From contig PKCN01000232.1 in the NCBI GenBank assembly GCA_002862205.1, positions 1 through 40,462 on the forward strand: DNA of 40,462 bases. Reading direction: 5' to 3'. This document shows positions 4,158-40,462 of the stretch, piece after piece. How positions within the stretch are numbered: position 1 is the first letter of the stretch; the number at the start of each line of letters is the position of its first letter. The translations under genes and the position numbers were made by a program. Source of the DNA: Planctomycetaceae bacterium. Its GTDB lineage: Bacteria; Planctomycetota; Planctomycetia; Pirellulales; Pirellulaceae. The notes below the pieces were generated by a model. The model worked only from the letters and a program-made list of their open reading frames with translations, was not told the DNA's origin and ran no database searches.

Positions 4158-4646
4158 TTTTCGTGTCTTCCTGACGCGGGTGGCATTTGTTTACCCAGAA
4201 AGAGGGGGTTTGATCACTCTTTCGGGAGTGCATTTCATCCGAATACGAGGGTCGGTAGCGATCCAACGGTATCAACCCTGCGTCAAACCTTGCAAGACCG
4301 GAACTTTTCACCCGAGTCCACCGTCAAAGACGGCTGGAGCGGGCGATTGCCGTAATACCACATACAACCGCGCCAAACTGACCTAAACCCAGTACCACAG
4401 ACGATTTTCGTTGCTTAATCAAGCTGTCCAATTACACTCCTACGCTGGATTCGGCACAGGAATCCGTTGACCAGATTGATGATGTAACGGTCGTCTTTTT
4501 TGAATAAATCTCCCGTTGGACACCTTTTGGTGCCCTGCGAGACCCGAATTTTATACAGATGGCATCTCCGCCGCGCAGGGTAGGCAGTGGGGCTGTTTAA
4601 CACGATTGCCAATTGATTTTGGCACCTTGAATACAGAGGCTGCTTG
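4158..4646. other. Divergent intergenic region upstream of the giant surface-protein gene
   Basis: This gap of about 490 bp holds no credible gene. It must contain promoters for both the leftward TPR lipoprotein and the rightward 15.9-kb gene, but I see no strong -35/-10 pair. Several small inverted repeats are present: CACTC/GAGTG near 4214, CCGTC/GACGG near 4320, and TGCCAA/TTGGCA at 4607-4624, about 22 bases before the start codon. An AGAGG ribosome-binding site sits at 4635-4639. Confidence 0.5.
4607..4624. promoter_or_regulatory. Inverted repeat in the leader of the giant gene
   Basis: Perfect 6-bp arms TGCCAA and TTGGCA separated by 6 bases, ending 22 bases before the ATG at 4647. It could be a small mRNA hairpin just upstream of the ribosome-binding site or a protein-binding site. 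The arms are short enough to occur by chance, so the call is weak. Confidence 0.25.
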
Positions 4647-20837: not shown

Positions 20838-23408
20838 ATGAAAAAGTATCGCTCAAAATCGAAAGGCAGAGACCGAAGGTCGTTTCGACGTTTGAGAGTG
20901 GAATCGCTCGAGCATCGTCGCTTGTTGACCGCAACGCCACTTGGCGTGACACCGCTGGATACAGGGGAATTCCTGCTGGGCAGTGTGGCAGTGACTCCGG
21001 TGCTGTTTGAAAGCAATGGGACGATCGACCCCGAATCACAAAATTGGACAGCTGCGGAAATTGATCAATCGCTGGCCAGAATTGGCGAAGGTGTGAATTG
21101 GTGGAGCGATACTCTCGATCAGCTCAACACGGTCCATACCATTGATTTTGTGTTTGACAATGATTTCGCGCTCAGCCCATTTGAGACAAGTTATGAGCCG
21201 ATCGATCGGATTAGCAATAATTTCAATCTCTATGTGGGCGACTTTCTGACGGCTCAGGGGTTTGGGAATGTGAGCAGCATTGAGGAGGGGATGAAGCAAT
21301 TCAATGCCCACCAGCGGGAACAGATGGGAACGGATTGGTCCTTCACCATCTTCATGGTTGATTCATCCGATGATCCCGATGGCCAGTTTTTGTCGGGTGG
21401 CTTTTTCCAAACCGCTTTCGCGTACGCGGGTGGGTTGTTCATGGTCACACCGTCGACCCGACCGGCCTCTACCATCGCGCATGAGATGGGGCACATATTC
21501 TGGGCGAGGGATGAGTATCCTGGTGGTGGATCGTGGACGGATCGTCGAGGCTACTACGATTCCCAGAACCTCAATGCGGCTGATAATCCAACGCCAGGAT
21601 TTGTTCAGGAAGACAGTATCATGAGTAGTGGTATGGTGCTGGCGAATGCCTATGCTGCGAATGAGAGCCCGGATTCTACTTTGGCCATGATCGGTTGGCG
21701 CGACACCGATGGCGATGGGGTTTTTGATCTCGCAGATGTACCCTTGGAACTTACGGGCGAGGGTTACTTTGATGCTGCATCGTCGAATTACCGCTTCACT
21801 GGCTCAGCTTCCGCTGTACCTTTGATGAATCAGAACTCGTCAGGGCCGCAGAGTGATATCACGCTGAATCGAGTCAGCCAGCTTCAGTATCGCTTGGACG
21901 GAGGAGCGTGGGTTACGGTGTCCCAGCCCGACCAACAGAAAGTTGACTTTGATGTGACCATCACACTTGGGCAGCCTTTCTCCTCAATCCAATGGCGAGT
22001 GGTTGATGATGTGACCGGGGTGACGAGTGTTGTGATTGATGGGAATGCGGCTCTGCCGGCTTATGCCCAGACCAGTGGGTCGGGAGTCGTTTTTCTCGAT
22101 GATGACGCCAACGATCAACGTGATTCCTCGGAACAGGTCCTCATCGGCACAACGGTTGACATTAAGAATGCGGATGGAAGTGAGGTTGTTTTCAACGAGG
22201 TTGGGGCATCAACTTATCCGCTTGGCTTTCTGCCCTCTAATCTGCCAAATGTCACCTTGGCCTCCCAGCATCCCAGTCTGAATCTGGTCTCAGTTGGTGA
22301 CTTGGGAACAACTGGTGTCCGAGTATTTCAGCAATTTGACTCAAGTTTTGGCCCCCTCGTGTTGCGGGATACCTGGACTCAGGATCAACCGCTGAGTGCA
22401 ACTTTTGATTTGCCGGTGGGAGAGGTTGTTGTTGATGTTCATGGAGCCATTGCGGGTAGCTTTGTCAGAATTGAGGCAAAGGATTCCCTGGGAAACCTAC
22501 TGCAACGTACCACCAGTGAGCTCATTGCATCGGGAGTTTCCAAGACCGTTCGAGTGAACGATCCGCTCGGCAGAATTGCCAGTGTGTTGGTATACGGTCA
22601 TGCGGAGACGCAGGCCTTGATCACTGGAATCAGTTTTGGCACCAATCCGGTCCTCAGCACTGGACCCAGTGGTGGTTGGCGGTTTGAAAACCTGCCCACC
22701 GGTCAATACACCGTCGATATTACCCCAGAGCTCTTGATTCATCAGGTGGATCAATCGAGTTTCACGATTGATGTGACCGCCAGTGGAAGTGGGTTTGTTC
22801 AATCAGCCGCCAGTCGTGTTGACTGTCCTCGTTTCAACGCGACACTTCCCGAAGATGTCAATGCTAGTGGCGATGTGACGGTGCTCGATGCTCTAGTGGT
22901 CATCAACGATATCGCTCGTGAGGGGGCAAGGATTCTGCAGGCCGATGAACTGCTGACGACTTTCATTGATGTCACCAATGACGGACGTGTGTCGAGTTTG
23001 GATGCGCTTCGGGTTCTCAATCGACTGAGCTTGATTTCCGGCGGTGGTGAGGGTGAAGCGGCAAGTTTCGCGTCTGCCTTGGAACCCGAGGCCAATGACA
23101 GGAGAGCCGCCGGTTCTGATCTCTACTTTCAAGCCTTTCCCTCGTGTTTCGTTGCTAAAGTACATCGCCAACCCATTGGGGGGGTGTTGAACTATGAGGA
23201 TTCTTACAGGGGTTCCGAAAGTATCGGTAGGAAGAATGCCGATACCCCCCTCTACGGACCGCTGCAACAGGTAGGGTCCGTAAATGAAATCATGGTTTTT
23301 CCGCTCAGTACGGTAGAAATGCCAGTTGAGGCTGATTCGGGTCAGGTCGAAGTTGGGCATCCAGATAAGCATTTGGGTCCAACGATTGCCCCGCAATTGC
23401 CAGAATAA
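20838..23408 (+). CDS. LEPR-XLL dockerin metalloprotease (HExxH zinc peptidase)
   Basis: An 856-residue predicted exported zinc peptidase. The leader is basic and ends in VESLEHRRLL (21-30), the LEPR-XLL-type N-terminus. The catalytic domain (about 60-300) contains HEMGHIFWARDEY at 215-227: H215 and H219 as zinc ligands, E216 as general base, and D225 or E226 as a possible third ligand. A Met-turn-like DSIMSSG follows at 259-265, so a clan MA/metzincin-like fold is likely, though the usual third His and the Gly are absent. A SdrD-B-like domain begins SGVVFLDDDANDQRDSSEQ (about 413), is interrupted by some 170 residues, and resumes at GGWRFENLPTGQYTVDI (about 612). A dockerin pair (DVNASGDVTVLD, DVTNDGRVSSLD) follows, then GEGEA at 737-741. 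The last 115 residues do not resemble the rest and may be a stop-loss extension. The substrate is unknown. Confidence 0.88.
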   Translation: MKKYRSKSKGRDRRSFRRLRVESLEHRRLLTATPLGVTPLDTGEFLLGSVAVTPVLFESNGTIDPESQNWTAAEIDQSLARIGEGVNWWSDTLDQLNTVHTIDFVFDNDFALSPFETSYEPIDRISNNFNLYVGDFLTAQGFGNVSSIEEGMKQFNAHQREQMGTDWSFTIFMVDSSDDPDGQFLSGGFFQTAFAYAGGLFMVTPSTRPASTIAHEMGHIFWARDEYPGGGSWTDRRGYYDSQNLNAADNPTPGFVQEDSIMSSGMVLANAYAANESPDSTLAMIGWRDTDGDGVFDLADVPLELTGEGYFDAASSNYRFTGSASAVPLMNQNSSGPQSDITLNRVSQLQYRLDGGAWVTVSQPDQQKVDFDVTITLGQPFSSIQWRVVDDVTGVTSVVIDGNAALPAYAQTSGSGVVFLDDDANDQRDSSEQVLIGTTVDIKNADGSEVVFNEVGASTYPLGFLPSNLPNVTLASQHPSLNLVSVGDLGTTGVRVFQQFDSSFGPLVLRDTWTQDQPLSATFDLPVGEVVVDVHGAIAGSFVRIEAKDSLGNLLQRTTSELIASGVSKTVRVNDPLGRIASVLVYGHAETQALITGISFGTNPVLSTGPSGGWRFENLPTGQYTVDITPELLIHQVDQSSFTIDVTASGSGFVQSAASRVDCPRFNATLPEDVNASGDVTVLDALVVINDIAREGARILQADELLTTFIDVTNDGRVSSLDALRVLNRLSLISGGGEGEAASFASALEPEANDRRAAGSDLYFQAFPSCFVAKVHRQPIGGVLNYEDSYRGSESIGRKNADTPLYGPLQQVGSVNEIMVFPLSTVEMPVEADSGQVEVGHPDKHLGPTIAPQLPE
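23221..23245 (+). other. Hairpin within the tail of the metalloprotease gene
   Basis: Arms at 23221-23229 (GTATCGGTA) and 23237-23245 (TGCCGATAC) pair over 9 positions with one G-U, around a 7-base loop. It lies in the unusual 3' tail of the metalloprotease reading frame, just before a second hairpin. It has no T-run on the plus strand, so it is not a classical terminator. Confidence 0.5.
23253..23282 (+). other. Second hairpin within the tail of the metalloprotease gene
   Basis: Perfect 8-bp arms TACGGACC (23253-23260) and GGTCCGTA (23275-23282) with a 14-base loop. It lies 7 bases after the first hairpin. Two strong stems back to back suggest this stretch may once have been, or may still be, a 3'-end or RNA-level element and not a protein-coding tail. 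Confidence 0.5.
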
Positions 23409-23635: not shown

Positions 23636-26600
23636 ATGAGAAATTTGCGTAAATTACTTTCCCGTGGCCTGAAGTCCGGTTCTAGCAAGCGTCGCAGGTC
23701 TGCGAAGCGGTCACGGAACCAAGCTTCAGTGGGGCGGCAACTTTCCAGTGAAGCTCTGGAGAAGCGTGAACTGCTGGCTGGTGATGTGGTTGAGAATGTG
23801 AATCACAACTATCACACGGCGTACGACGTCAACGCGGATTATCAGATCACCGTGGGCGATGCGCTGGCGGTGCTCAACAAGCTTGGGCAGATTGGATCTG
23901 AGGGTGAGGCCGCGCCCGATAGTGACGAATACAATGTCTATGTCGACACCAACAACGATGATAAGATTACTCCCGCAGATGCGCTTGGCGTGATCAACGC
24001 TATCGGACGCGGTGAGGGAGTGGGCGAACTTGTTGAGATGTTCCTGAGTCCGCGGACCGCAGACGATCTTGAGATGACACCCGTCAATGGTGAGTACAAC
24101 ATTGCCGTTGGGGAAAAGTTCAACCTCGAAATCGCTTACAGCGATTTGAGAACGGGCACTGAGGCAAAAGGTGCTTTTCAGATCAGAGCTGATGTGACAT
24201 CAAGTTTGCCCGATTACCTCGCACCAGTGATGACCGAAACGCAACGGTTTCGTTTTGATCAGGGTGTATTCTCCGATCCCTCGTTACAGAGTGTAACATT
24301 CACTCAAGAAGGTACAGGGACAAGCTACGTTTCGCCGGCTGTGGATTTCCAAACGAATACGTTCATTGAAGTTGTGAATGCAATGAATTCCTTTGGATAC
24401 ACCTTCAATACCGATTACAAATACACGCCAGGTCTTGAGTTTTCTGATGGAGACCAGGGCTTCCTGCTCCAATGGACTGGCGCAACTTATGATGATGTTG
24501 ATGTGCCTGACATTCTTGTCAGCATCCAGCAAAGTGGTGGAACGTTGCTGGAGGCAAGCATGGCGGAGTTTTCTCCCTATCTGGAAGGACCAGATGGGAC
24601 GATGGGAACTGCCGACGATGTCCCCAATTCTGATGCGGTGCAGTTCAATCTTGACTTGGGAGTACGTACTTGGAGTCAAACGTATCTCCTTTTGGGAGGA
24701 CTGCCAAATGCACCCTACTACAACGGGCTTAATACCGGAGAGTTTGACACACAGCGAGACGCCGTTCCATCGCGACCCGGATTCATCAAAACGGGTGGAG
24801 TCGGTGGGCTTAATCCGCAGGGTGTCAAAGGTTTTGATTCTGGGTTTGTTGGTGCGACCCCCAACGATGCCTTCAGTTTGCCTGTCAAGCTGGTCCAGCC
24901 AGTGCAGGGTCTGATCCTGAACGTGACGCCGTCTTTTGATTTAGATCCCGAGGCGCTGCTTCTGTATGGGGAGCAATCGCCCTTAGGCCCCTCTGACGTG
25001 GTTCTGGATTCGTACGATGGTACGGGTACTCCTACAGACACGGGAGTCGCTGGTGTTGCTCACATCATCATCAATGGAATTGGTGAGAATCGTGACCCCG
25101 AAGTCAGTGGTCCTATCACGCAGTCACTCACGCAGAACGATAGTCTGACGAATATTGATTTATTGGAATTTGCATCTGACCCCGACAATAATGCGTTGTC
25201 GATTGACGTCGGTAGCGTGAATTTTACTGGTAACCTGGCGGGGGTCCATGTTTCCAATAATGAAGCAATCGTTGATCCAAGCTTCTATTCATTCCTCGCT
25301 GCGTCAGAGCAGGAGGTCGTCACGATCAGTTACGATATCGTTGATGGTGCTGGCGGATCAGTGGCCCAAACGGCGACGATCACCCTTACAGGGGTCAATG
25401 ACCCGGCAACTGGGATCACTGGAGATACCACTGGCAGCGTCACTGAGGATGGGACACTCGTTGCCAATGGCTTGCTCACTGTCGCCGATCTTGACGCGGG
25501 TGAAGATGAAGTGCAGCCACAAACAAATGTTAGCGGCACTTATGGAATTTTCTCCATCGATGCTGCCGGATCTTGGACTTACTCACTGAACAATGCTGAC
25601 TTGGTGGTTCAGGCATTGGCGGCCGGTGCCGCACCCGTAGATACGTTTGCTGTTTTGTCAAAAGATGGTGCGATTTCGGTCGACGTTATCGTTACGATCA
25701 ACGGCACCAATGATGCCCCAACCAAGGGGGCGCCTGTAACAGCGACCTTCAGCGAGGAACAGCCAGTCACTTCAGTTGACTTATTAACCGGGGCATCGGA
25801 TGTAGATCAGGGTGATGTTCTGAGTGTCGCAAACTATGCGGTCACAAGTGGAGACGCTGTGGGTGTTTCCCAGAACGGCAATAATGTGGATGTTGTTCCC
25901 GGAGCCTATGGGGCGCTCGAAGATGGCCAGTCTGAGGTCATTGTTCTGAATTACGATATTGTTGATGGGAACGGTGGCTCGGTCGGGCAGACCGCCACTA
26001 TCACTGTTACGGGAGTGTCCAATTTCTCTCCTGTCATTACGATCGAAGTGGGTGATGGGGTTGTTGGTACAGTCAACGAACTGGCTGCCACACCTTCGAC
26101 AACCACCGCGATCAGCAGTCCCACGGGAAGCATTGTCGGTGCTGATACAGTTGGCCCCGGAGTTGGGTATAACTACGGCTGGCAGTTCACAGTCGACCAA
26201 CCAGTCAAAATCTCTGAACTCGGTGCATTTGTTGGCACTAACTTTGAGTCTGCCAATGACTTAGCGCCAGACCCGGACATTATCAGGGTTGGATTGTGGG
26301 ATGTGTCCACGGGACAGCGATTGACCTATGTGGATTTGGGACGCGATACGTATGGCGGGCAACAAGGACAATTCGTTTACAAATCGGTGAATCCTGTCCC
26401 GCTTCAAGTAGGCGACTCCTACAGGATTAGCGTCGCATCCACGTCAACTCCGCTCGAGTTCAGCACGGATGTCACCGCCCAGACGATGGAAGGCACTGGG
26501 ATCTTCTCCGGCTTCCAGGGTGGATTGGTGGGGCAGTCCGAAGGCGCCGATCAGTATCCCAGTACGGTGGTCGCAGGAAATTCGGGTGGCTTTGTGGGCG

Positions 26601-29600
26601 GCAACTTCATGTGGTTTGAGGATCTGCCTCAAACCGCTACGGACACATTGAGTTTCTCCGATGCTGATCCTGCTGATACGCATTCAGTCAATACACAGGA
26701 GACTGGATCAGACTATATCGGCACGTTCTCAGCGACCCTTACGCCCGCGGTGAGTGGTCTGAATGGCGAAGTGGAGTGGAGCTTCAGTGCTCTTGACGCT
26801 GAGCTGGACGAACTTGCCAAGGACGAGGTCAGGTTACAGATCTATGATGTAACGGTTACAGACAGCAACAACGGCTCCGATGTCGAACAGGTTACCATCA
26901 CACTCAATGGAGTGAATGACCAACCGCTGGTCACAGAACCGATTTCACGAGTTTTCAACTCGGGGATGGCGAGCGAGAATATCGACTTGCTGACTGGAGC
27001 AAGTGATGTCGACGGTGACACGATTAGTGTCGGAGTTGGTTCCGTCAGCGTTGCGGGTGATGATCAAAGTGGAGTTTCGGTAGATGAAGTCAATAGTCGT
27101 GTGACGGTCACGCCCGGTGCTTACGCTTCGCTCAATGCGGGCGAGAAGGAGATTGTCGAGATCACCTACACCATTGTGGATGACAATGGAGGCGTCGTTG
27201 AACAGACTGCCACACTCACTTTCAATGGCATCAATGACCCACCTACGCCGGGTTCACCAATTTCCGCAACTTTCAATCAGAACGACAATGTGTCAGTTGT
27301 CAGTCTGATCACTGGTGCGACTGATCCCGAGAATGATGTTCTGACGGTCGATCAGGTTGCCTATAATCCTGCGAACCCCGTCGGGTTCCAGATTGTCAGT
27401 AACGACTCGGTTGAGGTGACACCTGCGGAGTACGTTTCGCTCAGCGTTGGTCAGGACGCAGTGGTACAGATTAACTATGTCATTGATGATGGCAATGGAA
27501 ACCAGACCCCGGTACAGACGGCTACCATCACTATCACGGGTCTGAATGATGCTGCCACAATCACAGGAGATACGAGCGGTGCGGTTGTCGAAGATACTGC
27601 GTTAACCGGCGGTCAGCTGACGGAAACTGGAACGTTGACAGTAAATGATGTCGACGCAGGGCAGGCAATTTTCTCCACTTCGGTAACTGGTCAGGCTGGT
27701 AACCTCGGATCGCTGGTCATCACCGAAGCGGGTGTGTGGTCTTATACTCTGGACAACAGTTTGCCGTCTGTTCAGGAGTTGGCAGCGGGAGTCCAGATCA
27801 CGGATTCATTTACCGTCGTATCATTCGATGGTACCGCGACAGAGAACATTGTGATTACGATTACGGGCGTGAACGACGCCGCAACGATCACTGGAAATAA
27901 CGAGGGTGGAGTCACCGAGGATGATTCGGATCCTACTCTGACCACTTCTGGAAACCTCAGTGTCACTGATGTCGATGCTGGTGAGGCTGTTTTCGACGCG
28001 GTGGTAATCGACGTTGACTCGCCTTTGGGGGCTCTGACTATCGATGCTGCGGGTGCGTGGAACTATTCGCTTGATAACACACTACCCGCTGTTCAGTCGC
28101 TGCCAGCTGCTGCAACCTTAGTGGACAAATTCGAAGTCAAGTCATTCGATCAGAGTGCAACAGAAACCGTCACCGTGACCATTACCGGAATCAATGATGT
28201 TCCAGTCTTTGGCGGTGGTGTTGAAGGTGATGTTCAAGAAGATGATAATGCGACACTGACGACCGCAGGTTCGCTGACGATCAGTGATGTGGATACCGGT
28301 GAGTCATTTGTTGATACCGCAGTGTCCTCCGGCGTGACGCTTGGAACACTGACGATTGATGTCAACGGCAACTGGACTTATCAAGTTGATAACTCAACTC
28401 CTGAGATACAGGCCCTGGTGGAAAATGACGAAATTATAGAAGACTTCACCATCACTTCGCTCGATGGAAGTGAAACCCAGATCGTCAGCATCAAAATCTT
28501 AGGTACAAACGATGTTCCCGAGACAGTTGTAGATGAACGTCTGGCTTTGAAAGATGATACGGTAGGGATTTTGGTTGATGTCCTGGCCAACGATAACGCG
28601 GGAGCCGGTGGCTTGGAAATCCAGACCATCAGCCTCAGCAGTAACCCTGACTTGTCAGAAACTGCGACTGCTGGTGTAGTGGGTGGTTCTGCTGTTATCG
28701 AAGATGGGAAGATTCGTTACATACCAAATGCGGGATTTGAAGGTACCGCAACGATCACCTACGAAATCGTTGATGCTGGTGGTCTTACGGCGGACGGGAC
28801 CTTGACGGTTGAGGTGGTTGACTTTGTACCTTCCACGCTTGGTGGTAGTGTGTTTGTCGACCACGTCGAGAATTTCCGCGATGTACGCGATAATGGTGCG
28901 GATCCGATTCGGAACGGGATCAAGGAGGACGATGAGAAGGGTTTCGCGAGCGTTCGAATCAAATTGGTTTCAACGAACAATTACACCGGCAGTCTAATTG
29001 AACGCGAAGTGCTGACCGATGCAGAGGGTGACTTCGAATTCACGAATGTCGTGCCCGGCGTGTATAAGGTTGTTTACGAACATCCAGAGCAGGTCAGGTA
29101 CGAAGGCTCGGGTGAATATGATATGACGATTCCCGCTTTGGGAGACGTTCAGCGTAATGATTTCAACTTTGGGTTGATTGGGACTCAGGGAGCAGCGATG
29201 GCCAGCGTGGGCTTGCTTGCATCCAGCTACCTCCGCACGGATGCCACAATCTCGCAGATCTCAGACGGGGGACGAGAGGGTGGTTTGGTCTGTCTGGATT
29301 CGACTGGACAGCAGAGTTTCCTTGTGTTGGGTTCCGGATTTGAAGGTGTTACGTTCGCCGAACTTGAACTCAACACAACACAAGATGCCGCGTTATTGAC
29401 GCTGTTGACTGAACAGGGTGACTTGCTTTCGACAATCCTCACTGAGGAGTATTTCGTCGTCAGTAATGATCAATGCGGAATTCAGTTCTTCGGCAGTTTG
29501 AATGACCACTTCTTCACAGAAGCTGGTTCAACCAACGGTACGACTTTTGACAACACCCGCACTGCCGTTGATGACTTCCAGGATAATAATAGTCAGGACT

Positions 29601-29602
29601 AG
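23636..29602 (+). CDS. LEPR-XLL giant protein with N-terminal dockerin, VCBS/cadherin-like repeats and SdrD-B-like domain
   Basis: A 1988-residue acidic predicted surface or extracellular protein. The basic leader ends in SSEALEKRELLAG (37-49). A dockerin type I pair follows at once: DVNADYQITVGDALAVLNKL (64-83) and DTNNDDKITPADALGVINAI (104-123), each with the D-x-N/D-x-D-x6-D calcium loop; dockerins are usually C-terminal. A cohesin-like beta-sandwich is possible from about residue 145 (YNIAVGEKFNLEIAYSDLR). Residues about 490-1625 hold alternating cadherin-like and VCBS repeats, each closing with a TGVND-type motif; one is split by a domain resembling DUF4082. An Ig-like domain (about 1630-1725) and a SdrD-B-like domain (GGSVFVDHVENFRDVRDNG, about 1735-1850) follow, then a short C-terminal domain with a Cys pair. 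Adhesion or matrix building is inferred from these families. The intrinsic terminator at 29675-29702 ends the gene. Confidence 0.93.
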   Translation: MRNLRKLLSRGLKSGSSKRRRSAKRSRNQASVGRQLSSEALEKRELLAGDVVENVNHNYHTAYDVNADYQITVGDALAVLNKLGQIGSEGEAAPDSDEYNVYVDTNNDDKITPADALGVINAIGRGEGVGELVEMFLSPRTADDLEMTPVNGEYNIAVGEKFNLEIAYSDLRTGTEAKGAFQIRADVTSSLPDYLAPVMTETQRFRFDQGVFSDPSLQSVTFTQEGTGTSYVSPAVDFQTNTFIEVVNAMNSFGYTFNTDYKYTPGLEFSDGDQGFLLQWTGATYDDVDVPDILVSIQQSGGTLLEASMAEFSPYLEGPDGTMGTADDVPNSDAVQFNLDLGVRTWSQTYLLLGGLPNAPYYNGLNTGEFDTQRDAVPSRPGFIKTGGVGGLNPQGVKGFDSGFVGATPNDAFSLPVKLVQPVQGLILNVTPSFDLDPEALLLYGEQSPLGPSDVVLDSYDGTGTPTDTGVAGVAHIIINGIGENRDPEVSGPITQSLTQNDSLTNIDLLEFASDPDNNALSIDVGSVNFTGNLAGVHVSNNEAIVDPSFYSFLAASEQEVVTISYDIVDGAGGSVAQTATITLTGVNDPATGITGDTTGSVTEDGTLVANGLLTVADLDAGEDEVQPQTNVSGTYGIFSIDAAGSWTYSLNNADLVVQALAAGAAPVDTFAVLSKDGAISVDVIVTINGTNDAPTKGAPVTATFSEEQPVTSVDLLTGASDVDQGDVLSVANYAVTSGDAVGVSQNGNNVDVVPGAYGALEDGQSEVIVLNYDIVDGNGGSVGQTATITVTGVSNFSPVITIEVGDGVVGTVNELAATPSTTTAISSPTGSIVGADTVGPGVGYNYGWQFTVDQPVKISELGAFVGTNFESANDLAPDPDIIRVGLWDVSTGQRLTYVDLGRDTYGGQQGQFVYKSVNPVPLQVGDSYRISVASTSTPLEFSTDVTAQTMEGTGIFSGFQGGLVGQSEGADQYPSTVVAGNSGGFVGGNFMWFEDLPQTATDTLSFSDADPADTHSVNTQETGSDYIGTFSATLTPAVSGLNGEVEWSFSALDAELDELAKDEVRLQIYDVTVTDSNNGSDVEQVTITLNGVNDQPLVTEPISRVFNSGMASENIDLLTGASDVDGDTISVGVGSVSVAGDDQSGVSVDEVNSRVTVTPGAYASLNAGEKEIVEITYTIVDDNGGVVEQTATLTFNGINDPPTPGSPISATFNQNDNVSVVSLITGATDPENDVLTVDQVAYNPANPVGFQIVSNDSVEVTPAEYVSLSVGQDAVVQINYVIDDGNGNQTPVQTATITITGLNDAATITGDTSGAVVEDTALTGGQLTETGTLTVNDVDAGQAIFSTSVTGQAGNLGSLVITEAGVWSYTLDNSLPSVQELAAGVQITDSFTVVSFDGTATENIVITITGVNDAATITGNNEGGVTEDDSDPTLTTSGNLSVTDVDAGEAVFDAVVIDVDSPLGALTIDAAGAWNYSLDNTLPAVQSLPAAATLVDKFEVKSFDQSATETVTVTITGINDVPVFGGGVEGDVQEDDNATLTTAGSLTISDVDTGESFVDTAVSSGVTLGTLTIDVNGNWTYQVDNSTPEIQALVENDEIIEDFTITSLDGSETQIVSIKILGTNDVPETVVDERLALKDDTVGILVDVLANDNAGAGGLEIQTISLSSNPDLSETATAGVVGGSAVIEDGKIRYIPNAGFEGTATITYEIVDAGGLTADGTLTVEVVDFVPSTLGGSVFVDHVENFRDVRDNGADPIRNGIKEDDEKGFASVRIKLVSTNNYTGSLIEREVLTDAEGDFEFTNVVPGVYKVVYEHPEQVRYEGSGEYDMTIPALGDVQRNDFNFGLIGTQGAAMASVGLLASSYLRTDATISQISDGGREGGLVCLDSTGQQSFLVLGSGFEGVTFAELELNTTQDAALLTLLTEQGDLLSTILTEEYFVVSNDQCGIQFFGSLNDHFFTEAGSTNGTTFDNTRTAVDDFQDNNSQD
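25100..28515 (+). repeat. Array of cadherin-like and VCBS protein repeats
   Basis: Nine units of about 100 codons encode repeats within the 1988-residue protein. Cadherin-like units (LLTGASDVDGD…YDIVDGNGG…TITVTG type) start near 25100, 25720, 26930 and 27240. VCBS units (GSVTEDGTLVANGLLTV… GSWTYSLNN type) start near 25410, 27550, 27876 and 28201. A fifth VCBS-like unit starts near 26020 and is interrupted before continuing at 26641. The copies are diverged at the DNA level, so this is an old protein-domain array, not a recent DNA tandem repeat. Confidence 0.8.
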
Positions 29603-32768: not shown

Positions 32769-35477
32769 TCAGTCCGCGGTTTCTTCGTAAATCGGCAAGT
32801 GACGATAGTAGACTTCCAGATTCAGAAGGTTCATGGTGGTGACGTAGAGACGTCCAGCGTGAGCAGACCAGCGGTCCGGAATGGCTCCAGCAGGTTCCCA
32901 GCTACCTGCATTCACTCCTTCTTTGACTTGACTTTCGATCAGAATCGGGTTCAGCGCCCGATTCCAACGATCCCAATATTCACCACCCATATGAAACATG
33001 ACTTGGGTGGCGTAGTACCAATAGTACGTGTCTTTTTGGGGTGATTCAACGGTGCCCACTTGAGGTGGGTATTGCAGCAGATACTCGGCAGCGGATTTCA
33101 TTACTTTGTTGTCGCGTCGCCAGCCCGAGTACATCCGCATCAGCATCCCGACGGCGGTCATGGTCGGCGTAGCCATGCGTCCATGTCGCTGAGTTGGGGT
33201 GTCTGGAGCGAAAGGGTTGTACCGGTAGCGATCGGGTTGTTGCGGTACCTGTGACAAGCCCAGCCAGCGTTGAATTCCCTGGTAGGTTTTCTCTGGCACT
33301 TCCAAACCGGATAGCTGGCCACTCTTCAATGCCATCATCATCCAGCCGGTAACACTTGTGTCTGAACTGACTTGGGCTGTGTATCGCCATCCTCCACGCT
33401 GGTCGTGCTGGGTATTGACAATGAAGTTAAGGCAACGCTGGGCAGGATCCTTGAGCTCAGGATCCTGTGTCATTCCGTACGCTTCACACATTGCCAAAGC
33501 CGCAATCCCATGACTGTAAAATGCTACATTTCGATTGCTGATAGCATTTTCGGGAACGTACAAATCGCCATTGGGCTGCTGTTTGTTGATAAGAAACTCG
33601 AGACCGCGACTGATGGTGCCGGCGTATTGATGTTGGCGGTGGGTGTAACCCGCTCCTTGAAACGCCAGCAGGCATAGTCCAGTAGCTGCGGTGTTGCTTC
33701 GTAGCAGAACGTTTTCTCCGTGTCCTTGCAGCGACCAGCTACCATCATCGTTTTGGGTACTGGCCAGATAGGACAAGCCAATTTCAATTGCTTCTTCTGT
33801 TTCAGGGCCAACATCCCCTGCAGCAGTGGCGGGTGCACCGCCTTTTGTTCGCATCACTCTTCGGTTGAACGACTCGACGGAAGCCACCTGCGTGCCAAAT
33901 GGGGTCGCCGGCCCACCAAGGTTGCGTCGGGGACGCTGGCCGCGTGAAAAATCAACGACTGTGATTTCGGGTTGGGTTTCGGATGGGATGATGCCAACCC
34001 GGCCATCAGCGAGCGTTGTAATTCCGGCAGGTCCTTCATCCACCATCACGTCGAGTTTGGGGCCACCTGCAGACGCTATCCTGGTGCTTGTTGATCCTCG
34101 TTGTGGTCTTGTGACTCGTTCCATGGGACCGCCGTCAGCAATCCTGTCTCCCATTGAATCCGAGGGAGTGGTGGCGGGCAGTGTGGTATCACTTATGGAG
34201 CCTTTGGGTGCCGTCGGCGGCCCGCTTGCCGCCATTCCAAATCCAGTCGTGACTCGACGTGTCCTCCCGGGAGTGCGTTGAGCTGTGCCAGCGTTGATGG
34301 TGGGCACGCCGCTGTTGGCCACGCTGTTGTTGCGAGCCGCAGACGTCTCGGTCTGGGATTCAGATGCACCCGGTAGATTGGCTATCGCCGATTCCGATAG
34401 ATTTGCACTGAGACTAACACTACTACGGGAGCGAGTTTTTCGAGTGATAGAAAAATCACCGCGGCCAATAACGCGTTCAGCAGTGGGTACTTGTTTGGCG
34501 ACGGCAACTACCTGAGTGGCGGGAGCAGATCCTGCAGGTTCCAGAGTTCGAGTGGGTGTACTTCGCTTGCGTTGTTGTTGGGTTGCCTGTCCAACGTTGG
34601 GAAGCGAAGTGCTACGACTTCTCGCGCCGGCGATTGAGTTTTCTTGTGGGTTACTGAATTCAAGCTCGACCGATGCTGTCGAGGTTGCCGTTGATTTCGA
34701 TGTCGGCCTTGAACGGGGTTGGGGATTGACCTGTTGTTCCACAGGATTCGCTGCCGTTGTCGACTCAACCGAGACTGAGGGAGCAGTTGGATTTTGCGTG
34801 TTCCATGTGGACGGTTGGGGATTATTGGATTGCTGTCTAGCTAGCTTGGCTGGCGAATCTGTCGGTTGTGGTTTCGATTCGTTCGGCTTTCGTCGCTTTA
34901 ACAGAAACTCCTGCAATGACTCTGGTTGTGGCTCACGGGTTTTGGGAATTTCAAGTCGCGGCGCGGTTTTTTCAACGGGTGGTAACTGTCGCTCCTCAAG
35001 AGGAGTTACGCGTGATGCCGTTTCAGCATCAACTGGTTTGGACCAATCAGGTGCCGTTGCCGTTTGCTTCGGTGTCTGAAACAGGTGTTCGGATACTGTA
35101 CGACTTACAAGGGAGCGTTCCTGTGTGACACCGGAGAACGCCTCGGGAAAATAGCGGCTGAAAATGATCACATTGATTGCAAGCATCATCAACAGGAGGT
35201 GGACAAAGAGGCTGAACAGGACGCCCAGTTGGATGGTGCGTCTGACGTACCGCGAGACAAAATTGTGCGAGAAAAACGCCATCGCCAACGCAATCGCAGG
35301 GACTGCAATGGTGTAGGTCCACGCATTCAACATCCAACGTGGATCATCAAATCGCAGTTCAGTTACCGCAAGATACAACACCAATCCAGCAAACGCGGCG
35401 ATGAACACATCAAGTGGCCATGTGCGTTCCGCCTTGCTGGTCTGCGTCTCGATAGGTGGTGCTTTTATGGAATTCAC
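32769..35477 (-). CDS. Membrane-anchored alpha/alpha-toroid protein; candidate TonB/TolA-like transducer
   Basis: A 902-residue inner-membrane protein starting with GTG and lacking a clear ribosome-binding site. Three hydrophobic segments lie at about 22-39, 51-70 and 84-106. The loop SRYVRR before the third is positive, which places the large C-terminal part in the periplasm. The third segment contains S89-L-F-V-H93, the SxxxH spacing found in the transmembrane helix of TonB and TolA. A linker of about 440 residues follows, rich in Pro, Ser, Thr, Gln and Arg. From about 557 (GPETEEAIEIGLSYL) to the end is an alpha/alpha-toroid domain of the squalene cyclase/prenyltransferase type, with QNDDGSW, QQPNGDLY and QRGGWRY repeats. 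I see no DXDD cyclase motif, so catalysis is doubtful. The gene starts 39 bp after exbD in the same operon. The transducer role is inference. Confidence 0.85.
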   Translation of the reverse strand: MNSIKAPPIETQTSKAERTWPLDVFIAAFAGLVLYLAVTELRFDDPRWMLNAWTYTIAVPAIALAMAFFSHNFVSRYVRRTIQLGVLFSLFVHLLLMMLAINVIIFSRYFPEAFSGVTQERSLVSRTVSEHLFQTPKQTATAPDWSKPVDAETASRVTPLEERQLPPVEKTAPRLEIPKTREPQPESLQEFLLKRRKPNESKPQPTDSPAKLARQQSNNPQPSTWNTQNPTAPSVSVESTTAANPVEQQVNPQPRSRPTSKSTATSTASVELEFSNPQENSIAGARSRSTSLPNVGQATQQQRKRSTPTRTLEPAGSAPATQVVAVAKQVPTAERVIGRGDFSITRKTRSRSSVSLSANLSESAIANLPGASESQTETSAARNNSVANSGVPTINAGTAQRTPGRTRRVTTGFGMAASGPPTAPKGSISDTTLPATTPSDSMGDRIADGGPMERVTRPQRGSTSTRIASAGGPKLDVMVDEGPAGITTLADGRVGIIPSETQPEITVVDFSRGQRPRRNLGGPATPFGTQVASVESFNRRVMRTKGGAPATAAGDVGPETEEAIEIGLSYLASTQNDDGSWSLQGHGENVLLRSNTAATGLCLLAFQGAGYTHRQHQYAGTISRGLEFLINKQQPNGDLYVPENAISNRNVAFYSHGIAALAMCEAYGMTQDPELKDPAQRCLNFIVNTQHDQRGGWRYTAQVSSDTSVTGWMMMALKSGQLSGLEVPEKTYQGIQRWLGLSQVPQQPDRYRYNPFAPDTPTQRHGRMATPTMTAVGMLMRMYSGWRRDNKVMKSAAEYLLQYPPQVGTVESPQKDTYYWYYATQVMFHMGGEYWDRWNRALNPILIESQVKEGVNAGSWEPAGAIPDRWSAHAGRLYVTTMNLLNLEVYYRHLPIYEETAD

Positions 35478-35516: not shown

Positions 35517-35936
35517 TTAACTTTCTGGACCTTCCTTGGTCGTAACACTGTAGTCACTGACTCCGGTACGGTTGCAAACATCCATGACACTTACGACCGG
35601 TTGAAAAGCCGTGGTTCGATCCGCTCGAATGATAACCGTTTGGTTGGTCGGGTTGTTGGAAACAGCGGTTTCAAGGAATACCTGGAGTTCACTCAAATCC
35701 GTCGATTTTCCGGAGAGATAGAGTTCGCCTTCGTTGTCAATGTCGATGACAACTTCGCGGGGCTTGCTCGTCATTGGCACCGCGCTTGTTGCTGTTGGGA
35801 GGACAATATCGAGACGTCTTTCTTCCTCCTCAAATTCGCTGGTAACAAGAAAGAAAATGAGCAACAAAAACACGACGTCGATGAGTGGCGTCAGGCTCAA
35901 TGTGCTGGCGATGCTGGAGCGTTTAATCTTGGCCAT
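35517..35936 (-). CDS. exbD: ExbD/TolR-family biopolymer transport protein
   Basis: A 139-residue single-span inner-membrane protein of the ExbD/TolR family, which with ExbB/TolQ couples the proton gradient to work at the cell envelope. The N-terminus is short and basic. The membrane helix LTPLIDVVFLLLIFFLVTS (about 15-33) holds the conserved protonatable Asp in the family motif PLIDVVF. The periplasmic part (about 35-139) shows the expected beta/alpha layout, with REVVIDIDNEGELYLSGKST and TVIIRADRTTAFQPVVSVMD. The start codon lies 2 bases after the stop of the upstream exbB-like gene, and the toroid gene follows 39 bp later, so translation is probably coupled. TolR and ExbD cannot be separated on sequence alone. 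Confidence 0.95.
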   Translation of the reverse strand: MAKIKRSSIASTLSLTPLIDVVFLLLIFFLVTSEFEEEERRLDIVLPTATSAVPMTSKPREVVIDIDNEGELYLSGKSTDLSELQVFLETAVSNNPTNQTVIIRADRTTAFQPVVSVMDVCNRTGVSDYSVTTKEGPES

Positions 35937-35938
35937 AT

Positions 35939-36895
35939 TTAACCTGCCTTGACCCCACTGCGTTTGTCTTTGACGGAACGCGGTGGCGGCGGTGGTTGTG
36001 GCGTTTCAGGCATCGTGATCTGCTTTCGATCCAGTGAATGAAGAACACCATCCTCATCAAGTCGCTGTAGGCCTGCATAAGGGGCCATCGCTGGTGCGAT
36101 GCGGAAGGCAAATTCCTCGATTTGGTGAAACAGTTTTGCCAGACGATTTTCGAGGTAGAGAGCCAGAATCGCCGCCGGGATCGCGACAATCAAGCCAGAG
36201 AGAGTGGTGACCAACGCTGTGTAAATACCCTCCGACAATTGCTCGCTCCGACTGCGGTCAGCCGTCAATGCGGTTGATTCGTGGAATGCCACGATCATGC
36301 CCCAGACCGTGCCCAGAAGCCCCATCAGCGGAGTTGCCGCGGCTGCGAGCGTCAGCCAGCGGATCGAAGAGGCTTGTTGGTCAGCCTCACGCTCCATCGT
36401 TTCGTGGGCTGTTCGCTCAATTTCTGCCAAGGGTTGTCCTGTTCTCAACAGCATTGCTGTGACAACGCGACTTGCGGGGGAGGGATATTCACGGCAGCTC
36501 TGTAACGCCACGCCAGGGCTGAAACGATCAAGCGGAGTTGAAAGATCTTCCAATTCGTTGGTCAGTTCAGAGGGCAAGATTTTTTCGGGCCGCAGACTCA
36601 TGAACTTCTCGAACGCGAGAGCTACCACCATCAAACTCATGATGCCGATTGGGATCATGAAAGCTCCTCCACGCGTCACGAGCGTCAGCAGGTCAATCCC
36701 GGGCGAATCACTTTGCGGTGACACCTCGGAAAATTCTGGTTGCTCCTGCATCACCGCCTGTATCTCATCCGCCTTGATTACCGGCGTTGGGTCCTGACCA
36801 AGTGACCAAGGCGTGTTGAGCCACGCCGAAAGGAACAGCAGGACAGCCAGAGCCAGTGAGTAGCGCGCCAATTTATGATCGTTGTTGAGTTGCAT
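35939..36895 (-). CDS. exbB: ExbB/TolQ/MotA-family proton channel protein
   Basis: A 318-residue inner-membrane protein that would form the proton channel with ExbD. The ATG at 36895 gives MQLNNDHKLARYSLALAVLL, a signal peptide or first membrane helix followed by a periplasmic acidic segment (about 34-70). The open frame extends 52 codons upstream into the TPR gene but lacks family sequence there. Core helices lie at about 77-96, 183-204 and 225-248. The family motif around 187-203 reads ATPLMGLLGTVWGMIVAF, and TALVTTLSGLIVAIPA follows. The cytoplasmic tail is Pro-rich and basic. The start lies 2 bases after the TPR gene stop. An extra N-terminal hydrophobic segment is often seen in proteins of this family from other phyla. 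Partner choice (Ton-like or Tol-like) is unresolved. Confidence 0.94.
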   Translation of the reverse strand: MQLNNDHKLARYSLALAVLLFLSAWLNTPWSLGQDPTPVIKADEIQAVMQEQPEFSEVSPQSDSPGIDLLTLVTRGGAFMIPIGIMSLMVVALAFEKFMSLRPEKILPSELTNELEDLSTPLDRFSPGVALQSCREYPSPASRVVTAMLLRTGQPLAEIERTAHETMEREADQQASSIRWLTLAAAATPLMGLLGTVWGMIVAFHESTALTADRSRSEQLSEGIYTALVTTLSGLIVAIPAAILALYLENRLAKLFHQIEEFAFRIAPAMAPYAGLQRLDEDGVLHSLDRKQITMPETPQPPPPPRSVKDKRSGVKAG

Positions 36896-36897
36896 CA

Positions 36898-39800
36898 CTA
36901 TTTTAATTTCTCCAAGCGGTCGCGGGACTTGGCAGCCAGTTCGTGGTTGGGATGTTTTTCCGTCACGTATTGGTAGAAGTCCGTTGCATAATTTTTCGCC
37001 TTGTTCTTCGCATTGTTTGTTTTTGCGTTCTGTAACAGAAGGTCGCTGCACCTTCCAGCTTCGAATCCACTTTTCGCCTGCCAGTTCTTGATTTCTTGCG
37101 GTGCTTTCTCTGCACCGAATCCGTACATCACCCGCTGGAATTCAGGAATCGCCTTGTCATAGTCACGATTTGCAAAATGTATTTCGCCCATCATGAATCT
37201 CGATCTTGCTGCGGTCGCATTGCGATAGTTGTCAGCGACTTCTTGGTAAAACTCCATCGCTTTCGAACTCTTTTCGAGTTGTTGATAGGCAAATCCAGTC
37301 TCGTAAAAAATCTGTGGAAGGTACTCCGATGACGGAAACCGCGTTCTTAATTCGTTGTACCACTCGATGGCTGTTTGCCACTTTTTCAACTGTGCCGCAC
37401 TTTGTCCCCCATGAAGAAAAACCAGTTCACGCACCTGACGTTCCGCTTTATCCAGAACATTTTTCGCAGTTTCGTTGCGGTCCTGAATGGTCGACCTTGC
37501 TATCTCGTAGCCAGTCAGAGCAGACTGATACTCTGCTCGTTTGAATCGGCATTCGGCGATCATCGTTTTTGCGTCAAAGGTAAGCTGGCCCTTTGGAAAC
37601 CTGCTTGCCATCTCCTTGAAAGCTTTTTCAGACTCCAGGTAATTCTTCGTTTTGAATAGCGACCAGCCGAGGCGATAGTACGCTTTTTCTGCCAAGCCCG
37701 CGTCTTGCGACTGTGAACTCGCCAATCTGAATTGCTTCGCGGCTTCCTGCCAGCGGCTTTGCAGGTAGGCTTTCTGGCCGATGTAGTAAGCGGACTCTGC
37801 AAGCAAGGGTGACGTTGGATGTTCCTTGACCAGCTTTGCAAAGGACTTGATTGCATCGGATTCCTTGTCGCTTTCCTGCAATGACCAACCAAGTTCATAG
37901 AGCACTTCATCCATGGGTGGGTAGTCAGGAACCCGACGCATGAGTTCTTCAAGTTTTGAGGCAGCGCGATCAGGTTGCTTGTTTTTTTGATCGATCAGAG
38001 CTGCTTCATAAAGTGCATGCCCCAAACTGATCCCCGTTGGTTTAGTCTCCAGGAAATTCTGCAAGTCTTTACCCGCTTCTGCAATCTGTCCAAGGTTGCG
38101 TCTTGCAATTCCACGAGCAAGAGTGGCCTCGCTTGCCAGGACATGATTCGGGTACATCCTTAGCATCTCAGTCAGAGGCACGACCGCTGCATCGAACTGC
38201 TGTGTTTGCATCAATGCGTTCCCTTTGCCGTACAGAGCATAGGGAACGAGTTTCGGGTTTGATTTGTCTTTGAGGACCTGATCGTAATAACCAATGGCTT
38301 CTGCATACTTCCCACTCGCATTGGATAACTGCGCCAGTTTGTATCTCGCTTGGGCGATCAACACCGGGTTTTTGCGGCGTTTGATGACCTGTTGCCAATC
38401 TTTGATGGCGTTGTCATTGTCGCCAAGAGTGGTCCTGCTCTGACCAGACAGAAGCAGTGCCTCATCGGCTCGCGCCCAGTTGGGATCACTGGCCACGCTG
38501 GCTTGGAAGGCGTTCACGGCCTGCTTGTTATCACCTGCTTCAAGAAAAGCTTGTCCAATCATAAGATGAGCTTCTGCTTTTTGGGCAGACTCGGGTAGAT
38601 TTGCGAGCTCGGATTTAAGGATGCGTGTAACGTCCTGAAACCGTTCTGCTGTCAGGAAGGCTGAGCCGGCACGAAGGATCCATGTGGGGCGCTGAATATT
38701 GTCTTTCTGGGTCGATTCCAACAGGTGTTTGTAGGTATCCGCAGCAGCTGATTCCTGCTTGGTGAGCAGCTGGCTTTCAGCGGCAACGAATTTGATGTCG
38801 GGTACGAGTGTGTCTTTGGGAAAACGCTTGATGAACTCGAGTGCAAGGCTTAAGGCCTTTTTGGGATTCTGGATTTGTAATGCCGAAAAAGCCGCGTTAT
38901 AGAGAGCTCTTGAGGCTAATGGATTGTCAGGATTCTCACGATAAATTTGCTCAAACATCGTCATCGAATTTTCGAGCGTTTTCGGCTCCATTGACAGTGC
39001 TTCTGCGAAGTCGAGTTTCAAGTCAATGGCAAATCCACCCTCGACACCGCGTTGGATCTGATCACTCGCAATGCGAGCTGCTTCTACGGGCCGACGCTTG
39101 TTGATTTCAATTCTCGATAACCAGTGCGCAGCTTCGGTTGCAGCAACCAGATTATCTTGCTTGAGAACCTGGCGGAAACGTTTGGCTGCTTCATCGATGT
39201 TACCACTGCGATAACTGCTTTGCGCTGAAGCCAGAATTGCCGAACTGGCATAGTTTGAAGTTGGGTATTCAGCGAGCAGGCGATCGTATTTTTTTGCAGC
39301 TTCTTCAGGTGCATTGGTTTGCACGTACGCAAAAGCCTGTCGGAACAGCGCATAGGCGCGATCGTCAGCGACCTCTGTCGATTCCATTGCATCACCGAAT
39401 GATTGCACAGCAGCCGCGTAATCTTTCTGCATGATCAACATGTCACCCATCCGCAGTTGGACATCGGTGATCAACTCGGCCCGTTCGCAGCCTTCCAGTA
39501 ACTGCTTGAAGGAGTCCAATGCCTGATCAAATTGTTTCAATTCTTCGTATGCCACACCTCTCGCGTAGAAAGCATCGCAACGTAACTGCGAAGATTTGGC
39601 ATCTGGCATCGTCAACATGCGGTCATAATATTGAATGGCCTGCTTGCTATTGCCCAGACCATAGGCGGCTTCACCACTGTAGAACAGAGCACGATCCATG
39701 AAACGTGTTTTTGGTGATTCCTTCAGCAATTGCTGGAAGGCGTCGAGTGACAGTTTTAATTTTCCCTGATCTCTTTTCTCGCCGTTTTCCGATGCGATGT

Positions 39801-40176
39801 AGTTACACCAACCAAAATTGGCCAGTGATTCTTCTCGCATGTCATATTTTGTTTTTTGCAGTGCCCTGCCGAATGCTTTTGCCGCAGCAATATAATCGGG
39901 CGTCTCCAGTTGCATGTAACAAACACCCAGATAGTGCGCGGCATCCGCTGCCATCGGATGTTTGGGGTACTTGGACAGAAAAGATTGCCAGCCATCAATG
40001 GCGAGATTAGTTGCCCCGCCAGTCTGGAAGTTGGCAGCATCGGCGTAGGCTGCCATGGCTGCCTCGCCCTTGTCGTCTTGCCCATGAACTTGCAACATTC
40101 CGGTCAATGGCTGCAGGCACAGAACAACACACAAACCCAACACGCGAAACCAGACATTTTGCGTTTTGTGTATCAT
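36898..40176 (-). CDS. Large periplasmic TPR-repeat protein
   Basis: A 1092-residue protein built almost entirely of tetratricopeptide-like repeats, first gene of the ExbB/ExbD operon. The ATG at 40176 gives MIHKTQNVWFRVLG followed by a hydrophobic core and a likely signal-peptidase site near VHGQD. A TTG at 40230 in the same frame would put 18 residues before it and is less likely. The repeats have the spacing of CpoB/YbgF, BamD and other outer-membrane-associated TPRs, for example FLSKYPKHPMAADAAHYLGV, LLAEYPTSNYASSAILASAQ, LVKEHPTSPLLAESAYYIGQ and LRTRFPSSEYLPQIFYETGF; the phrase A/L-x-x-Y-P-x-S/H recurs throughout. By analogy with CpoB beside TolQRA it may be the periplasmic partner of the energised complex. 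I infer that from gene order, not from a catalytic motif. Confidence 0.92.
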   Translation of the reverse strand: MIHKTQNVWFRVLGLCVVLCLQPLTGMLQVHGQDDKGEAAMAAYADAANFQTGGATNLAIDGWQSFLSKYPKHPMAADAAHYLGVCYMQLETPDYIAAAKAFGRALQKTKYDMREESLANFGWCNYIASENGEKRDQGKLKLSLDAFQQLLKESPKTRFMDRALFYSGEAAYGLGNSKQAIQYYDRMLTMPDAKSSQLRCDAFYARGVAYEELKQFDQALDSFKQLLEGCERAELITDVQLRMGDMLIMQKDYAAAVQSFGDAMESTEVADDRAYALFRQAFAYVQTNAPEEAAKKYDRLLAEYPTSNYASSAILASAQSSYRSGNIDEAAKRFRQVLKQDNLVAATEAAHWLSRIEINKRRPVEAARIASDQIQRGVEGGFAIDLKLDFAEALSMEPKTLENSMTMFEQIYRENPDNPLASRALYNAAFSALQIQNPKKALSLALEFIKRFPKDTLVPDIKFVAAESQLLTKQESAAADTYKHLLESTQKDNIQRPTWILRAGSAFLTAERFQDVTRILKSELANLPESAQKAEAHLMIGQAFLEAGDNKQAVNAFQASVASDPNWARADEALLLSGQSRTTLGDNDNAIKDWQQVIKRRKNPVLIAQARYKLAQLSNASGKYAEAIGYYDQVLKDKSNPKLVPYALYGKGNALMQTQQFDAAVVPLTEMLRMYPNHVLASEATLARGIARRNLGQIAEAGKDLQNFLETKPTGISLGHALYEAALIDQKNKQPDRAASKLEELMRRVPDYPPMDEVLYELGWSLQESDKESDAIKSFAKLVKEHPTSPLLAESAYYIGQKAYLQSRWQEAAKQFRLASSQSQDAGLAEKAYYRLGWSLFKTKNYLESEKAFKEMASRFPKGQLTFDAKTMIAECRFKRAEYQSALTGYEIARSTIQDRNETAKNVLDKAERQVRELVFLHGGQSAAQLKKWQTAIEWYNELRTRFPSSEYLPQIFYETGFAYQQLEKSSKAMEFYQEVADNYRNATAARSRFMMGEIHFANRDYDKAIPEFQRVMYGFGAEKAPQEIKNWQAKSGFEAGRCSDLLLQNAKTNNAKNKAKNYATDFYQYVTEKHPNHELAAKSRDRLEKLK

Positions 40177-40462
40177 GAAGGGCCAGCAGATAAGAGCTAA
40201 CTGCCTATTCACTAACGTGCTCCCATTCAAACAACGACGATTTCCAGATTGCCCATTCAGGCTGGGACAAGAACCACGCTTGTATTTTAACGGTACAATG
40301 AAAAAGTCGATAGTTCGTCGGATAAGTTACCTGTTCGGAAAACTCGTCATCCAACGTGGCTTGCCCAGCTCAACGAGTTTGATTGCCAATTATCGACTAT
40401 CTGAACGAACCGGTGGGCGGTTTGTTACGTAAACACGAAATTATCCTAGCAACCGCCGACTG
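40177..40462. other. Upstream region of the TPR-exbB-exbD-toroid operon
   Basis: 286 bp at the edge of the window. No reading frame here looks like a real gene, and I see no RNA gene. It should contain the promoter of the minus-strand operon; the AT-rich patch near 40280-40300 is the likeliest place, but the boxes are not convincing. Confidence 0.4.

Follow-up and report, generated by a model that had tools for sequence, protein, structure and literature searches.

A toroid-ended candidate energy transducer encoded with an ExbB-ExbD motor in a member of the Pirellulaceae

The window analyzed here is the whole 40,462-nucleotide stretch of contig PKCN01000232.1 from the draft genome of a Planctomycetaceae bacterium (family Pirellulaceae). 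It contains four closely spaced minus-strand genes, which therefore probably form a single operon:

36898..40230, minus strand: TPR gene, first gene of the probable operon
35939..36895, minus strand: exbB (PF01618), with a likely ATG at 36895; the listed open reading frame extends to 37051
35517..35936, minus strand: exbD (PF02472), with the membrane aspartate in PLIDVVF
32769..35477, minus strand: gene of the 902-residue toroid-ended candidate transducer, with a GTG start at 35477

Gaps of 2 nt separate the TPR stop codon from the exbB ATG and exbB from exbD, and 39 nt lie between the exbD stop (35517) and the GTG start of the 902-codon gene (35477). The motor genes are supported by Pfam (ExbB, PF01618, 4.6e-24; ExbD, PF02472, 6.2e-30), and the first-pass annotation was right to place the 902-residue protein directly after exbB and exbD. 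Pfam searches and inspection of open reading frames revealed no other transducer candidate in the four-gene cluster. A scan for promoters and terminators gave 3 promoters versus 6.2 expected and 13 terminators versus 10.8 expected. Elsewhere, the window contains a plus-strand open frame of 5295 codons (4644-20531), with no Pfam match at 1e-5 over its first 5000 residues; 3' of it are a dockerin-bearing ORF (20838-23408) and then a cadherin/Big/dockerin-bearing ORF of 1988 amino acids (23636-29602).

The 902-residue protein consists of a predicted N-terminal membrane domain, a long linker and a C-terminal globular domain:

35358..35420, minus strand: membrane helix 1, residues 20-40 (AlphaFold2)
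35250..35324, minus strand: membrane helix 2, residues 52-76 (AlphaFold2)
35151..35240, minus strand: membrane helix 3, residues 80-109, bearing S89 and H93 (AlphaFold2, hydropathy, conservation)
35199..35213, minus strand: SxxxH motif, codons S89 to H93 in membrane helix 3 (position and conservation)
33828..35150, minus strand: Thr/Ser/Pro/Ala-rich linker, about residues 110-550, approximately 440 residues (composition of residues 121-570)
32793..33815, minus strand: alpha/alpha-toroid output domain, about residues 555-895 (Pfam, alignment, AlphaFold2, Foldseek)

S89 and H93 are located within the most hydrophobic stretch of the protein, and their codons (35213..35199) are exactly where the motif had been placed, in the third and last membrane helix. 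A second SxxxH, at residue 582, is in the toroid and outside any membrane helix. The AlphaFold2 model of the three N-terminal helices is of moderate quality (pLDDT 72, pTM 0.46). Of the 104 distinct homologous domains, 99 have Arg or Lys at residue 80, directly before helix 3, consistent with a loop in the cytoplasm at that point and a periplasmic C-terminus. The earlier argument that basic residues before the helix put the C-terminus in the periplasm therefore finds support in the homologs taken together and not in the window protein on its own, whose loop charge counts are too small to settle topology. When the opposite topology, with the toroid in the cytoplasm, was considered, the three predicted helices and the conserved basic residue favored a periplasmic toroid.

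Residues 121-570 comprise 11.6% Thr, 11.3% Ser, 10.4% Pro, 10.2% Ala, 8.7% Arg and 5.8% Gln. The initial description of a Pro/Ser/Thr/Gln-rich linker of about 440 residues is thus accurate for Pro, Ser and Thr but not for Gln, which is exceeded by Ala, Arg, Gly, Val and Glu. A strict D-box pattern after the helix was found in 1 of 103 cases versus 2.6 expected, and the same pattern also misses E. coli TolA. Long variants of the protein (L072-L074, L076-L086, L089 and L098; about 1157-2201 amino acids) keep the three helices and the toroid and have a far longer middle region. Pfam analysis of four of them (L072, L073, L074 and L078) gave only weak toroid-type or sugar-enzyme matches, located in the toroid.

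For residues 538-902, AlphaFold2 predicts an all-helical fold (pLDDT 92.3, pTM 0.91). The best of the Foldseek matches listed is the squalene-hopene cyclase 8paj (E 2.5e-7, TM-score 0.61); the other matches among the 50 listed, nearly all of them enzymes, include further terpene cyclases as well as sugar epimerases, GH76 mannanases and AprG, and identity to toroid enzymes is 10-15% among the matches listed. The confident model and its matches to toroid proteins bear out the alpha/alpha-toroid that had been proposed to follow the linker. The squalene-hopene C-terminal family PF13243 scores 20.2 bits on the toroid, versus a cut-off of 26.1, and the DxDD motif of squalene-hopene cyclases is absent from it. 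A squalene or terpene cyclase function was rejected on the grounds that the likeness is one of fold only, that DxDD is missing and that the score falls below the family cut-off. Across 63 aligned toroids, eleven residues never vary, eight of them aromatic or acidic (Y654, E665, W697, Y699, D706, Y818, Y821 and Y822); judged from the alignment, this set suggests that the conserved residues form a pocket.

To assess conservation of the motif, homologs of the three-helix domain were assembled from a scan of genome contigs, from family genomes and from 40 added stretches hand-picked from 89 family-genome rows, and the resulting 131 homologous proteins were reduced to 104 distinct three-helix domains. 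The search profile (59 rows) includes the S and H columns and overlaps the 104 domains, so detection leans toward motif-bearing domains. Position 93 is His in 96 of the distinct domains and Asn in 8, and position 89 is Ser in 82, Cys in 14, Gly in 5 and Ala in 3 (89/93 pairs: SH 75, CH 14, SN 7, GH 4, AH 3, GN 1). The question of whether both residues are invariant across planctomycete homologs thus has a divided answer: position 93 is restricted to His or Asn in 104 of 104 domains, but Ser89 is variable, and its replacement by Cys, Gly or Ala in 22 of 104 counts against the protein being a transducer. When positions are ranked by the frequency of their commonest residue, H93 is second, and W20 of helix 1 alone is higher (Trp in 102 of 104 rows, the other two being gaps). 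On a tree built without columns 89 and 93, exchange between His and Asn requires at least two changes and the states at position 89 require 12.

Resemblance to the S-x3-H-x6-L-x3-S motif of TonB and TolA is confined to its first half. The S-H spacing is retained but the L-S half is absent: the residue at H+7 is A100 (Ala 63, Ser 13, Met 9 and Leu 7 of 104), that at H+11 is I104, which is variable in the 104 domains, and the L and S of SHLS are unconserved here. A one-sided conservation moment was not significant in any of the three helices, the helix 3 value being reached by 2943 of 5000 shuffles. As a background, 433 ORFs from related loci, excluding ExbB, ExbD and toroid proteins, supplied 309 TM-like segments, 3 of which contain SxxxH; the occurrence of SxxxH in helix 3 is beyond chance. 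One of the three background cases is a 253-residue ORF just 3' of the toroid gene in Planctomycetes bacterium CA13 (L052:8630-9388, plus strand), in which an SxxxH helix, RRAIVWSVLFHIGLIVALFFWYV, stands isolated and for which Pfam gives no convincing match. It resembles another TonB-type anchor and is possibly a small further transducer.

The other side of the proposed contact is described for E. coli in two cryo-EM papers (PMC12215075 and PMC12583513): TolA H22 contacts TolQ S28, TonB H20 contacts ExbB S34, and these serines, which are on helix 1, link via a Trp to a Pro of TM3. The corresponding positions in the window are:

36635..36637, minus strand: ExbB helix-1 serine (S87 in numbering from the ATG), which aligns with E. 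coli TolQ S28 and, in the MAFFT alignment, also with ExbB S34
36176..36178, minus strand: ExbB TM3 proline, which aligns with E. coli TolQ P187 and ExbB P190

MAFFT places E. coli TolQ S28 and ExbB S34 on one serine of the window ExbB; a profile alignment agrees for TolQ S28 but is shifted by one residue at E. coli ExbB S34. We compared 66 distinct ExbBs of these loci, 65 of which cover the serine position. The helix-1 serine is Ser in 65 of 65 and the TM3 proline is Pro in 66 of 66, and the position of TolQ W32 and ExbB W38 is Val in the window ExbB, as in 57 of the 66. All 100 distinct ExbDs have the membrane aspartate, 94 of them identified by a pattern and six by eye.

The other ExbBs of the same genome have Cys (second toroid cluster), Ser (L138), Gly (L137) and Gly (L139) at the serine position. 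The SxxxH-like stretches near other motors, SNWGH in a DUF4159 ORF of L139 (weak), ASSLH in L136, and TMVGH and ATPRRH in L138, are not convincing. No clean contrast between motif neighbor and serine was found among the ExbBs of this genome, and L138 keeps Ser with no SxxxH neighbor seen. By Pfam scan, L139 (contig C34) encodes, besides ExbB and two ExbDs, a DUF4159 protein, a TPR protein and a small protein with one helix; its two ExbDs are reminiscent of the published vWA-type cluster.

Adjacency to the motor genes was counted for the 75 distinct domains whose upstream DNA is longer than 1600 nt, 29 of 104 being omitted for too little of it or for an open 5' end. ExbD is encoded at most 250 nt upstream of the open frame in 72 of 75, and both ExbB and ExbD are present in 69 of 75. 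In L186, L189 and L173, ExbD is present and ExbB was undetected; L177, L170 and L097 have neither motor gene. A relative of the window TPR protein is encoded upstream in 57 of the 64 loci with more than 3 kb upstream. The N-terminal domain is present in 88 of 100 family genomes (12 gave no match) and in at least 10 of 294 genomes of the phylum, six of these from the same family, with at most 13 candidates scored per genome. These counts indicate that the three-helix form is mainly seen in the Pirellulaceae and near relatives.

A second TPR-ExbB-ExbD-toroid cluster is present in the same draft genome, on contig C29; the toroid protein encoded there has two helices, with SIVLH as its motif. In total, the genome has 10 ExbD matches and 11 MotA/ExbB matches, 10 of the latter above the curated cut-off. 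TonB_C has no match in it, and 7 of 19 relatives searched alike have one. As a yardstick, six of the eight TonB_C proteins of these seven relatives carry SxxxH in their most hydrophobic segment. Induction of exbB (RB12053) and exbD (RB12055) by high salt is recorded for Rhodopirellula baltica in a 2009 paper; the main text of a Planctopirus limnophila essential-gene paper has no match to the terms looked up.

Toroid proteins that do not have the three-helix domain (n = 30, after five duplicates, L126, L135, L140, L141 and L142, were dropped) were examined for the same motif. An SxxxH helix precedes the toroid in 22 of 30, in many cases with a sequence similar to SPWWMISIAIH, and in 18 of these 22 just one TM-like stretch lies ahead of the toroid; with such single-helix anchors, the motif is not required for packing a three-helix bundle. 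In L092 the SxxxH is in a stretch under the hydropathy cut, and on visual inspection the position of the Ser is occupied by Ala in L151 and L100. Whether homologs commonly occur away from exbBD depends on the type: the three-helix proteins adjoin ExbD, as counted above, but in 19 of the 22 SxxxH relatives no exbBD lies in the flanks examined, which extend to no more than about 6 kb per side, and this speaks against the motif being strictly tied to a neighboring motor. The tonB gene itself is often encoded apart from exbBD. L104, L109 and L111 are tandem pairs of single-helix toroid genes with SPWWM-SxxxH type helices and no exbBD in the flanking DNA examined. L100:1996-7092 (plus strand) encodes a 1699-residue toroid protein beside ExbBD with N-terminal PD40 propeller repeats as in TolB (PF07676, 4.3e-15), a Tol-like element and a toroid on one chain.

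The first-pass annotation had read the protein as the TonB/TolA plan with a different output domain. Conservation, gene order, the ExbB serine and the TM3 proline support that reading, with the corrections that the anchor has three helices, that SHLS is represented by its S-H half alone, that the Ser is replaceable and that vWA-ended proteins provide a precedent. Further support comes from the rarity of SxxxH in the background segments, the SIVLH of the second cluster, the TPR relatives encoded upstream, the SxxxH of most TonB_C proteins in relatives and the lack of a TonB_C match in this genome. On the other side stand the absent L-S half, the three helices, the Val at the Trp position of ExbB, the one-residue shift of the profile alignment at ExbB S34, the absent D-box pattern (a weak test), the nonsignificant conservation moment of helix 3, the missing clean contrast among the ExbBs of this genome, the 19 of 22 SxxxH relatives with no exbBD in their flanks and the 12 of 100 family genomes with no N-domain match. 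We consider it likely that the 902-residue protein is a TonB/TolA-like energy transducer driven by ExbBD and ending in a toroid output domain, and we infer its coupling and target as follows. Helix 3 would dock on the outside of the ExbB pentamer via H93 and S89, set against the serine of ExbB helix 1. The protein would be moved or activated by the ExbB-ExbD proton motor, whose genes directly precede its own. The disordered linker of about 440 residues could span the periplasm, and the toroid would act at its far end, with the outer membrane (e.g., polysaccharide), the cell wall and the co-encoded TPR protein as candidate targets.

Swayne and Postle are said to have found in 2011 that Asn fully replaces His20 of TonB in E. 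coli. Asn as the only substitute for His93 in the 104 domains matches this reported replacement and supports the transducer reading. The natural His-to-Asn replacements, together with the reported mutant, also argue that residue 93 is a contact and not a proton carrier.

It is unlikely, in our estimation, that the toroid is instead a membrane-anchored periplasmic enzyme or a sugar- or lipid-binding protein that merely shares the operon, with ExbBD driving another partner and the S/H pair packing the protein's own three-helix anchor. Such a protein would be at home among the best 50 Foldseek matches, with their squalene-hopene and other terpene cyclases, sugar epimerases and GH76 mannanases, and would account for the pocket-like invariant residues of the 63 aligned toroids; moreover, the three-helix model is too moderate in quality to orient the S/H face relative to helices 1 and 2. 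However, the 22 of 30 toroid proteins that keep SxxxH in the absence of the three-helix domain include 18 with a single TM stretch, which have no bundle to pack, His93 is exchanged for Asn alone, and the DxDD motif of squalene-hopene cyclases is missing. Less probable still is an accessory, plug or sensor that binds ExbB via S/H and carries no force, its toroid sensing a ligand or the TPR protein and gating proton flow: the suggestion in PMC10907165 that the TonB helix may serve localization alone, with force passing via the D-box, would agree with this, as would the missing D-box pattern (a weak test) and the conserved pocket-like residues, but a long linker with a globular end is the plan of a transducer, and the four-gene cluster offers no other candidate for that role.

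As a transducer, the toroid-ended protein is probably a new version of the envelope machines that carry energy. If this is true, motor and output domain are separable modules, in which a short contact motif is retained and the working end is swapped. A broader proposal, which we put forward tentatively as a possibility somewhat short of an expectation, is that alpha/alpha-toroid proteins may constitute a broad class of their own among proton-driven envelope transducers, the third alongside TonB/TolA and the vWA proteins. The Pirellulaceae three-helix form would have its own motor operon, the second cluster would be paralogous, and the single-helix S-H toroids would borrow a motor encoded elsewhere; in genomes without TonB_C, such proteins would supply the energy that otherwise comes from Ton or Tol. 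The 10 ExbD matches of the window genome, set against no TonB_C match, raise the question of what planctomycete ExbBD motors drive, and the operon described here makes that question testable.

Among known systems, TonB and TolA share with the 902-residue protein an S-x3-H helix, whose E. coli versions touch a serine on helix 1 of ExbB/TolQ, a disordered periplasmic linker, a globular C-terminal domain and motor genes nearby, although for tonB this last is not always so. They differ from it in having one N-terminal helix and not three, in the L-S half of SHLS, replaced here by A100 and I104, and in their C-terminal fold, in place of which this protein has a toroid. TonB/TolA models of Pfam and NCBIfam have no match in it up to E 0.1. 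With three helices, no TonB/TolA end domain and no L-S half, the 902-residue protein is outside the TonB/TolA family by the features tested; PMC12215075 notes weaker conservation of the L and S of SHLS in Ton as well.

With squalene-hopene cyclases and other alpha/alpha-toroid enzymes, the C-terminal fold is held in common (8paj), but the toroid of the 902-residue protein does not contain DxDD, is joined to a membrane domain and is encoded with a motor. No toroid-ended transducer was found in the literature, judged by title and abstract start among the matches listed, and no literature linking squalene, ExbD and planctomycetes was found, in both cases within a coverage that leaves out most subscription papers.

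The closest precedent is the set of vWA-ended force transducers published in 2025 (PMC12204202). That paper describes an SHLS motif in many of them, a disordered linker and no assigned function; in the PVC group they are often encoded 3' of a TPR gene, a tolQ-like gene and a pair of tolR-like genes, and more systems powered by such motors are said there to be still to be found. Its main text mentions neither toroid nor squalene. The vWA transducers resemble the window system in the gene order TPR, tolQ-like, tolR-like, transducer, in the S-H helix, in the linker and in an unrelated output domain. They have a vWA fold, one helix, a domain II of about 100 residues and two tolR-like genes, whereas the window has a toroid, three helices and one exbD-like gene. 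Since vWA-ended transducers of the same plan are already described in that paper, it is the toroid version that is new, and the plan itself is known.
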